Source: a virus. From it: a stretch of DNA of 64,000 nt. Numbering within the stretch: the first letter of the stretch is position 1; every line of letters begins with the position of its first letter. Below the pieces are notes generated by a model. It made no database searches and was not told the origin of the DNA. It worked only from the letters and a program-made list of their open reading frames with translations. The stretch spans positions 1-64,000 of the IMG/VR virus record IMGVR_UViG_3300033149_003115; one strand, 5' to 3'. Position numbers and translations under genes: made by a program. This document shows, piece after piece, positions 5,462 through 32,486 of this stretch.

Positions 5462-5853
5462 AGGAAATATCCACCATGCTCGATGAGTTCTGTCTATCCC
5501 TAGACCTAGACCTATCTGAAGATGTCAAAGAGTTCCGACCATTCGTGGAAAGAGGGATAGAGTATTACGAGATAGACCTTAAGGATAGTAGGAGCTACAT
5601 CCTACTAAAGAGTGAGGAAGATGCTATTTCTCTAGCTACTATCAGAGCTGAAGATAGCTTTCTAGACAACCCTCAGCTCTTTAATCAAGACTGGATATTC
5701 TCCTTGTATATTGAAAAGCTTGATAACAAGTCGTTCTCTGAGTATGTAGCAGAGGAAGCTGTCAGAGCAGATGGTTTTCTTTCCTTCCTATCATCGTACT
5801 CTGATGACTGCATAACCACACCTGAGGGCTACATCATCATAAGAACCAACTAG
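5434..5853 (+). CDS. Conserved virus-type protein, 139 aa
   Basis: Acidic protein with EDAISLATIRAEDSFLDN and a later VRADGFLSFLSSY segment, a layout I associate with uncharacterised phage/archaeal-virus proteins. GAGGTGA precedes ATG 5434. No catalytic residues identified. Confidence 0.55.
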   Translation: MLKSSKHEIEEISTMLDEFCLSLDLDLSEDVKEFRPFVERGIEYYEIDLKDSRSYILLKSEEDAISLATIRAEDSFLDNPQLFNQDWIFSLYIEKLDNKSFSEYVAEEAVRADGFLSFLSSYSDDCITTPEGYIIIRTN

Positions 5854-7112: not shown

Positions 7113-7629
7113 TTGAAAACGTGGTTCACATCGGACACACACTTTCGGGCATAAGAATATTATAAAGTACTGTAAAAGACCTTTCAAGTCAGCTGATCAC
7201 ATGGACATGAGGCTGATCCAGCTGTGGAACTCCAGAGTGGACAAGCATGATATTGTTATCCATCTAGGAGACTTCATGTTCTATAAGAGGATCCATAAAC
7301 CCAGCTATTATTTTGATCAGCTTAATGGGATGCTACTCCCACTAAGGGGCAACCATGATCATAACAACTCATTGAACACCCCTATTCAGTCTCTGGTCAT
7401 CAAGCTAGGGGGTAAAGAGATATATTGTACTCATAATCCCAGAGATTATAACCCACAATATTCTATTAACCTAGTAGGACATGTCCATGATAAGTGGAGG
7501 ATAAAGAAGATATCCAGAACTTACCTAGTGAATGTGGGAGTTGATGTCTGGAATTATCATCCAATTGACATCAATGAGATAATTAGAGCTCTAAATAAAT
7601 ACAAGAGAGAAGAGGAGTCCCAGAGATAG
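7113..7629 (+). CDS. Calcineurin-like phosphoesterase interrupted by +1 frameshift
   Basis: TTG at 7113 follows GAGGTGG. The first 11 codons read to SDTHF in frame 1 (stop at 7152-7154). One extra base (C7146) then separates them from GHKNIIKYC in the next frame, which runs to 7629. Joined, they give the signature SDTHFGHKNII, then GDFMF, GNHDH, THNP and GHVH: all the metal motifs of a small calcineurin-like metallophosphatase of about 171 residues. The junction UUU-C-GGG is a plausible +1 slip site (Phe tRNA can re-pair UUU to UUC; CGG is a rare codon here). A base-calling error or a broken gene are the alternatives. Confidence 0.7.
7143..7149 (+). other. Candidate +1 ribosomal frameshift site (TTT C GGG)
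   Basis: The shift falls exactly between conserved Phe and Gly of the phosphoesterase motif. TTT followed by CGG allows P-site slippage to TTC, and CGG is uncommon in this CpG-poor sequence. A stop follows three codons later in the zero frame. Confidence 0.45.
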
Positions 7630-29696: not shown

Positions 29697-29727
29697 GATT
29701 TACAAAGCTAAAGTGGAGGTGATAATT

Positions 29728-30621
29728 ATGAATGACTTTAAAATTGTTTTATTAGGACACTTAGGAGTGGGATCTATATTCGGAATGATCACCAGAGGAA
29801 ATGAACAGAATAGATTTCAAAGATGGCTGAGGAACGAAGCATGGGAAAAAGCTAAGACAGCTGTTGGGGTTCCAGGGACCTACCCTGATATCCTAGTTAT
29901 AGGTGGAGAAGTAGGAGAGGGACAGAACAGGCTCGATTTCTGTGAGGATATCTGGTTACCAGACTATGAAAAGCAATCCATGATGGGAGCTGAGCTCATA
30001 AGTGAGTGGATAGGTGAGAACACTAAAGAGGTTCTAATTCTCTATGCTCATAGATATCATGGGATGAAAGAGATCAGGTTTGAGGATTTGCTAGCTAAGG
30101 ATCTAAAGATACTTCATCCCAACAAGAAGATACTGGTAGGAACTCAGTTTATCAGATCATACTTTGGTAAGACACTGAGGTTCAGACATGGTACATCTGG
30201 AGCTTTTGTATACTTATCAAGTGCTAATGAGAGACAGATCAAGTTCAACCTGATAGAGTATAGCTTAGGTAAAACACCAAAGTATGACTTCAGCTATGAG
30301 TTCCATAATCACAGAGCAGCTGGAGCCATGTTTGAGACCATTGGATCTATGTGGTGTCCATGTTTCAAGCTAATAGACAGATATGCAGAACTTAGACACC
30401 CCGATGCATGGTTACCAGACATAGGTCTACTAGCTATCACATTCCAGGTTAGGTTTGGTGATGTGAGAGTAAACAATGATCCTATCCTGTTTTATCCTCC
30501 CTTCAGGTTTGAGGATCTGGAGACTGCTATTAGAGACTTTAACAAGGTGTTAGAGGAGAAGAGAAAGGAAACGTATAAGAGACAGCTGGAGCTCCTGAAG
30601 AAGGATACATCATGTTCATAG
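29728..30621 (+). CDS. Divergent metallophosphoesterase-like protein, 297 aa
   Basis: Segments KIVLLGHLGVGS, LVIGGEVGEG, LILYAHRYHGM and FHNHRAAG occupy the places of the D-x-H, GD-x-x-D/G, GN-H and H-x-H motifs in viral calcineurin-like proteins, but several metal ligands are replaced. It may be an inactive or altered family member. ATG 29728 with GGAGGTGA upstream. The pentamer array begins right after its stop. Confidence 0.45.
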   Translation: MNDFKIVLLGHLGVGSIFGMITRGNEQNRFQRWLRNEAWEKAKTAVGVPGTYPDILVIGGEVGEGQNRLDFCEDIWLPDYEKQSMMGAELISEWIGENTKEVLILYAHRYHGMKEIRFEDLLAKDLKILHPNKKILVGTQFIRSYFGKTLRFRHGTSGAFVYLSSANERQIKFNLIEYSLGKTPKYDFSYEFHNHRAAGAMFETIGSMWCPCFKLIDRYAELRHPDAWLPDIGLLAITFQVRFGDVRVNNDPILFYPPFRFEDLETAIRDFNKVLEEKRKETYKRQLELLKKDTSCS

Positions 30622-30900
30622 GATAAGCTATGATATGATCCGATGAGATCTGCTTGGTTGTGCTTAGCCAGGTTATGCTAATCTTAGATAACTAGAATAA
30701 TATATCATGTTCATGGGCTTTGATATGTTAAGCTGGGTTAAGCTCGGTTGTGCTTAGTTGAGCTGAGATAAGTTAAATAGGCTAAATTGTAATTAACGTT
30801 ACATTCATAAGCTCTGATTTGATAAGATATGATGGGTTAGGCTGTGATTAGTTTGGCTTAGCTACGTTGGGTTCGGTTAAGCTAGGATAAGATGTTCTTA
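30609..30900. repeat. Degenerate pentamer (GNTNN) arrays 1-3
   Basis: Three blocks of 5-bp units each beginning G-[ACT]-T: 30622-30691 (14 units, one broken), 30717-30776 (12 units) and 30811-30895 (17 units). Typical units are GTTAA, GCTNN and GATAA. Blocks 1 and 2 share phase; block 3 is shifted by one base. Each block follows a (AT)CATGTTCAT-like leader at 30609, 30704 and about 30798, giving a higher-order period of about 95 bp. No gene is seen in the 315-nt gap. It could be a binding array for a partition, replication or packaging protein. Confidence 0.75.
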
Positions 30901-30936
30901 GACATAATTTGAGCTATGATAATTGGAGGTGATATT

Positions 30937-31506
30937 ATGGAGTCAGATTTGATATACCAAATAAGATGTAGAATAATAGGACTAAGACCATATCTACAAC
31001 ATAGAAGACCCATAGACAAGAAAGAGAATAAAGAGCTAAGTAACTTGATTAAAATACTACAGAAAGATGCTACTGATGAGAAAGCATATACTAAGGAAGC
31101 TGAGTACTATGTCTACAAGAACGACAATGGATACTATATTCCATCCATACACATCAAGAGTGCTATGATCAAAGCTTCTACTAACTTTAAGGTAGGAGGG
31201 AAAGGTAACAAGACATACAAGGATTTCGTTAAAGGATTCGTAGTAATAGATCCAAAAGAGATACCAATAAATCCTCAAAAATACACTCTAGATAGAAGAT
31301 GGGAAAGAGTACAACAAGCTAGGATCATGAGAACTAGACCTAGATTTGATGATTGGTCAGCTGAGTTTAATCTAATTAGCTTAGATGAGACAGTATTACC
31401 AATGAAAGACCTAAAGAAAATCATAGTGTATGCAGGAAAGTATATCGGTATTGGAGATAGAAGACCAGAGTTTGGTAGGTTTAAAGTAGAGTTTCTAGAT
31501 GACTAA
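30937..31506 (+). CDS. Conserved phage/archaeal-virus protein, 189 aa
   Basis: GYYIPSIHIKSAMIKASTNF, KGFVVIDPKEIP, RARIMRTRPRFDDW-like and YAGKYIGIGDRRPEFGRF blocks match a protein family common in phages and archaeal mobile elements, of unknown role (I suspect a nucleic-acid-binding beta fold). ATG 30937 follows GGAGGTGA. The cassette it heads is flanked by pentamer arrays. Confidence 0.6.
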   Translation: MESDLIYQIRCRIIGLRPYLQHRRPIDKKENKELSNLIKILQKDATDEKAYTKEAEYYVYKNDNGYYIPSIHIKSAMIKASTNFKVGGKGNKTYKDFVKGFVVIDPKEIPINPQKYTLDRRWERVQQARIMRTRPRFDDWSAEFNLISLDETVLPMKDLKKIIVYAGKYIGIGDRRPEFGRFKVEFLDD

Positions 31507-32426: not shown

Positions 32427-32486
32427 GATTAGTTAAGCTTTGTTCCGTTAGGCTCGGCTTCGCTAGGTTAAGTTAGGTTAAGTTTA
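32427..32486. repeat. Degenerate pentamer (GNTNN) array 4
   Basis: Twelve uninterrupted 5-bp units, every one beginning G-[ACT]-T: GATTA GTTAA GCTTT GTTCC (first four) through GTTAA GTTTA. Lies between genes, 1.5 kb right of arrays 1-3, so the two sites bracket the 30937-32413 genes. Confidence 0.75.

Follow-up and report, generated by a model that had tools for sequence, protein, structure and literature searches.

Pentanucleotide arrays beside a Cas7-like gene of a tailed virus are probable guide RNA repeats of a VIPR system with a variant core

The closest described counterparts of the locus studied here are the VIPR (Viral Interference Programmable Repeat) systems, which consist of Vipr, an ancestral RAMP protein, and guide RNAs known as vrRNAs (PMC13142463, a preprint). 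According to this source, a vrRNA carries 9–16 YNNGG repeats. Their NN bases pair with double-stranded DNA in a register that skips one base per unit, which brings about repression; the targets are satellites and prophages. The arrays of SUSP1 are transcribed and co-purify with Vipr, and experiments showed that DNA specificity is set by their NN letters (PMC13142463). Vipr has an RRM core and a glycine-rich loop, the vrRNAs have an invariable structured 3′ tail, and the systems include the vipr-accessory genes vap1–6; the core is given as GGY in the main text, which also allows "a related consensus" (PMC13142463). In phage wV8, a relative of SUSP1, we found GGTNN arrays adjoining the Vipr gene. 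The deposited wV8 record (locus L231) labels the vrRNA tails (5774–5831 and 7167–7224) direct repeat DR_4 and lists vipr as hypothetical gene 95.

The window (the whole stretch of DNA that was analysed, 64,000 nucleotides of IMG/VR virus record IMGVR_UViG_3300033149_003115) contains four pentamer arrays, v1–v3 directly upstream of a vipr gene and v4 ~920 bp downstream of it, before another gene (Table 1). A first-pass annotation had overlooked v4 and had described the other three as GNTNN blocks of 14, 12, and 17 units. These three blocks are real. The Fourier power at period 5 was 9.38, as against a mean of 0.69 (sd 0.41, maximum 2.78) in dinucleotide-preserving shuffles (n = 2000), and it was 0.2–0.9 for the arrays at periods 3, 4, 6, 7, and 10; v1, v2, and v3 taken singly each had period-5 power above all 1000 shuffles. 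The counts of 12 and 17 units hold, but the first block comprises 12 units followed by one broken unit, TCTTA, and a GATAA, which accounts for the annotated 14. Successive blocks start at intervals of 95 and 94 bp, in agreement with the annotated higher-order period of ~95 bp. The leader said to precede each block is present ahead of the first two (CATGTTCATAG and CATGTTCATGG), whereas that of the third (TTACATTCATAA) is a weaker match.

Table 1. Features of the array locus (positions are those of the window)
Feature	Positions	Strand	Remarks
Candidate accessory gene	29713..30621	+	Metallophosphoesterase family, degenerate metal-binding motifs; homologs match Pfam Metallophos
Leader 1, CATGTTCATAG	30611..30621	+	Read directly; overlaps stop codon of upstream gene
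Array v1, vrRNA-like	30622..30681	+	12 GHTNN units including one GCC core, then TCTTAGATAA
Leader 2, CATGTTCATGG	30706..30716	+	From sequence
Array v2, vrRNA-like	30717..30776	+	12 GHTNN units
Leader 3, TTACATTCATAA	30799..30810	+	From sequence; weaker match to CATGTTCAT-like leaders
Array v3, vrRNA-like	30811..30895	+	17 GHTNN units
Shine–Dalgarno GGAGGTG of vipr	30925..30931	+	Read directly
vipr	30937..31506	+	189 aa, phrog_4652, RAMP/Cas7-like fold
Array v4, vrRNA-like	32427..32486	+	12 GHTNN units, intergenic

Over the 55 units of the four arrays, G occupies position 1 in 54 and T occupies position 3 in 54, and positions 4 and 5 are close to maximal entropy (~1.8 bits each), which bears out the annotated view that spacing is held as the sequence drifts. 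Position 2 is A in 16 units, C in 20, T in 19, and G in none, and its entropy of 1.58 bits is the ceiling for three letters. Since H is never G, the unit is better given as G-H-T-N-N; with position 2 degenerate, the core has two fixed bases rather than three. Across the whole of the 113.9-kb record of the virus, a seven-unit GHT pattern with at most one mismatch had 33 forward and 0 reverse matches, all 33 of them confined to v1–v4 on the plus strand, and a backwards-control pattern had 0 matches. The arrays are intergenic, and the annotation was right to call them noncoding. At the locus, Rfam gave 0 matches, ARAGORN found no tRNA, and promoter and terminator scans were at or below chance. 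An invariant structured 3′ tail was not seen when the four arrays were compared, the four downstream segments being unlike one another and having fold z-scores of −0.8 to +1.4 relative to shuffles.

The product of vipr matched phrog_4652 in PHROG with an E value of 3.5e-26. A profile of 35 homologs retrieved the SUSP1 Vipr protein from the PDB (36pp, E = 1.7e-49), and the single sequence matched the same entry (E = 1.3e-14). The AlphaFold (AF2) model of the protein had a pLDDT of 94.3, and Foldseek placed it with type VII Cas7 and type III-A Csm3 (E 4e-7 to 2e-4, TM 0.4–0.6). The model also matches a viral "Cas system-associated RAMP superfamily protein," and the alignment of homologs has the C-terminal motif GxGxxRP..GRF. 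By profile, fold, and C-terminal motif, then, the protein is a Vipr. The annotation had held that the arrays are not CRISPR. This is correct as regards repeat structure (no CRISPR-type array of identical repeats and unique spacers is in the TRF list, and the arrays have a period of 5 nt), but the adjacent protein belongs to the same RAMP superfamily. Like Cas7 of type VII and Csm3 of type III-A, it has a RAMP fold and is expected to line RNA; unlike in class 1 CRISPR effectors, no CRISPR repeats or spacers and no cas1, cas2, or other cas genes were seen beside vipr, the period is 5 nt rather than 6 nt, and identity is ~14%.

Because homology to Vipr and the Vipr fold occur beside the arrays, the locus matches VIPR systems. 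As in the type II VIPR of SUSP1 and Felixounavirus wV8, a homologous RAMP of ~190 aa is flanked on both sides by intergenic arrays with three fixed and two hypervariable bases, the virus has several arrays of similar length, and an extra gene adjoins vipr. The genome is viral, with a terminase and a family B DNA polymerase (PolB) in the record. Compared with the published vrRNA range of 9–16 repeats, v1, v2, and v4 lie inside and v3, with 17, slightly above (PMC13142463). The differences are in the core, which is GHU, with a position 2 that varies but excludes G, rather than the GGY of the preprint's main text; in the apparent lack, among the four arrays, of a recognisable shared 3′ tail, in place of which there is a short conserved 5′ leader; in the neighbour gene, a degenerate metallophosphoesterase; and in the virus itself, which is unrelated to Felix O1 by DNA.

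To see whether such arrays occur elsewhere, we scanned IMG/VR with GHTNN ×10, a search in which array counts are lower bounds. The matches listed comprised both perfect pentamer microsatellites and degenerate arrays (GTTNN and GCTNN, for example), and the degenerate loci recurrently adjoined a gene of ~190 aa, homologs of Vipr being detected beside most of them with a profile built from the window protein. Among the matches listed, Vipr was present at 37 of 50 degenerate viral loci as compared with 6 of 82 low-diversity loci (Fisher p = 1.1e-15), at a median distance from the array of 174 bp; some of the 13 degenerate loci at which Vipr went undetected are short fragments. The reversed control core THG gave six loci, half microsatellite-like or of low diversity (Vipr at 0/3) and half degenerate TCGNN arrays, CGA in the sense of vipr (Vipr at 3/3). 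In GTDB, the sole degenerate array locus had Vipr, as against 0 of 58 others; this locus (L183) is on the chromosome of Candidatus Aminicenantes bin112, a cellular assembly, perhaps in a provirus, and its arrays are AGCNN. Related elements do have the period of 5 whose presence in relatives the annotation had wished to see checked.

The IMG/VR loci were picked by having arrays, and so records chosen by the Vipr protein alone provide an unbiased check. All seven such records bear NN pentamer arrays by vipr, two of them weakly. The triplets are GGT in phage wV8, GGC in phages LittleE and Trine and in a Bradyrhizobium plasmid, and GCA in phage Vibrio 1.266.O; two Azospirillum plasmids (L278 and L279) have weaker G-x-C/GGC runs, scoring 26 and 25 of 30 against shuffle maxima of 22 and 23. 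The Vipr profile detected Vipr in 57 loci among the matches listed, nearly all with NN pentamer arrays. In the sense of vipr the triplet varies by virus (GTT, GHT, GAT, AGC, CGA, GGY, GCA, and, in L221, AAC). Position 2 is fixed at nearly all of ~55 loci among the matches listed; the window is among the most relaxed, and position 2 is similarly relaxed only in L094 (1.60 bits) and L078 (1.53 bits). A locus has between one and about twenty arrays.

Several of these loci have features of their own. Ten AGCNN arrays of 7–13 units lie upstream of vipr in L048 (7400–8560, minus strand). Between nearly all of them is a 60-nt segment, almost unchanged from copy to copy, with two hairpins, which makes this a very regular vrRNA array with a clear tail. 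Near the Vipr gene of L224 (7800–9900, minus strand) are ~20 GCTNN arrays with the constant linker GCCTGCCTT. The GTTNN arrays of L221 (1296–2802, counted in the vipr sense) are antisense to vipr, and so AACNN in that sense, unlike those of all other GTT loci. In Mycobacterium phage LittleE (L274, 2190–2510 and 3666–4030), the GGCNN arrays are followed by GGTTCGAGTCC-like stretches and then by stem partners; these segments resemble tRNA T-arms, although ARAGORN calls no tRNA there, and it is possible that tRNA-processing enzymes trim the vrRNAs of this phage. Among the Bradyrhizobium and Azospirillum plasmids (L277, L278, and L279), whose Vipr genes have GGC/NN arrays, one adjoins a metallophosphoesterase gene.

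In L084, L085, and L213, homologs of the gene just upstream of v1 adjoin Vipr genes or arrays; three of these homologs match Pfam Metallophos. The metallophosphoesterase gene of the Bradyrhizobium plasmid lies two genes past vipr. Relatives of the protein retain the motifs SDLH, NGD, and SHVH. In the copies of the window and of a close relative, record G001, GHLG and GGE replace the first two (DxH to HxG and GD to GE), and H-x-H is retained. These substitutions suggest a calcineurin-like phosphoesterase fold with a partly lost metal site, in a protein that would bind rather than cleave, and we propose the gene as a candidate vap gene. A PDB search with a profile of the protein gave no match, and its AF2 model was poor (pLDDT 43) and was left out of the reading.

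The virus encodes a terminase and an anaerobic ribonucleotide reductase, and its PolB is closest to those of haloarchaeal tailed viruses (22–24% identity), which hints that the virus is tailed and that its host is anaerobic and probably an archaeon. Between 33130 and 36385, the window also encodes about ten consecutive small proteins that are paralogous and resemble CxxC zinc ribbons. Records G000 and G001 have 114-bp direct end repeats, which probably stem from circular assemblies. At the DNA level, the locus matched none of the phage records searched, and G001 is the sole close relative (Vipr 66% identical, neighbour ORF 86%). Its arrays have GAT, GCT, and GTT units and are shorter and re-phased relative to those of the window, and one of them precedes the neighbour ORF, a site that bears no array in the window. 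Evidently, array turnover is fast, whereas the core is retained. Such turnover would be expected of guides facing changing targets, but it may be neutral.

We conclude, with a probability of about 0.88, that the window encodes a VIPR system with a variant core and that its four GHTNN arrays form the repeat portions of the vrRNAs. The VIPR identity of the locus is well supported by sequence, by fold, and by the linkage of arrays to Vipr; transcription into vrRNA, formation of a ribonucleoprotein, the 1-nt skip, and repression are carried over from SUSP1 by analogy. On that model, Vipr subunits would line the vrRNA, one per 5-nt unit, holding the fixed G and U of GHU. The two bases after GHU would stay free to pair with double-stranded DNA, one base being skipped per unit, so that 12 units would read 24 bases over ~36 bp. 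DNA so bound would be silenced, the targets by analogy being competing viruses or satellites. A search of IMG/VR with eight-unit exact xNN seeds of v1, v3, and v4 yielded no natural target; seed stretches were found (16 for v3, 2 for v1, and 24 for v4), with matches outside the seeds at chance. When skips of 0–3 and an H-N-N code were tried against 3.8 Mb on both strands, only self-matches exceeded shuffled-order controls.

A variant of this model is that position 2 is read as well. Since this position is free among A, C, and U, each unit of a GHU/NN guide could contribute three paired bases, with H opposite the base that is skipped in SUSP1 and NN following; the gapped code would become nearly contiguous, and G and U would be mere handles for the protein. 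We consider this unlikely.

Three other explanations were rejected. In the first, Vipr would bind arrays in its own 5′ leader and repress translation, the NN letters being neutral filler. The precedent is TRAP (trp RNA-binding attenuation protein), which binds (G/U)AGNN repeats with a 5-nt period, the RNA being wrapped by the oligomer. The spacing is that of TRAP sites, with two free bases between fixed triplets, three arrays lie ahead of vipr, and the NN letters are near random. TRAP, however, is an unrelated protein whose sites are (G/U)AG and whose spacers carry no information. The NN letters of SUSP1 determine which DNA is recognised (PMC13142463). Moreover, v4 lies downstream of vipr and ahead of another gene, and at many other loci the arrays are behind vipr or between convergent genes, so that we regard autoregulation as decidedly improbable. 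Less probable still is a double-stranded DNA element (a centromere, origin, or operator) contacted every 5 bp on alternating helix faces, as the first-pass annotation had supposed, with ParB-like or zinc proteins as partners. Five bp is indeed about half a helical turn, and the arrays are intergenic. But in unrelated viruses it is the Cas7-fold Vipr, of a family known to bind guide RNA, that accompanies the arrays, and nothing supports the ParB-like or zinc proteins; array number ranges widely among loci, and intergenic sites differ even in G001. In the published mechanism, the element acts as RNA and its drifting letters carry the information, and the SUSP1 equivalents are transcribed and co-purify with Vipr (PMC13142463). 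Finally, decay of a pentanucleotide microsatellite that arose by slippage is scarcely credible, for although perfect pentamer microsatellites were common in the same scan, the near-invariance of G1 and T3 beside near-maximal entropy at positions 4 and 5 is not that of a microsatellite, as the annotation had recognised, and low-diversity arrays seldom had Vipr among the matches listed.

The vrRNA reading provides independent support, from raw sequence, for the VIPR concept. It widens the range of such systems to a tailed virus that is probably archaeal, and it shows that viruses differ in their fixed triplet. Should Vipr and the triplet co-evolve, programmable DNA binders could be found in sets whose members do not interfere with one another. 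The window, with its relaxed position 2, amounts to a natural test of which vrRNA bases are handles and which are read.
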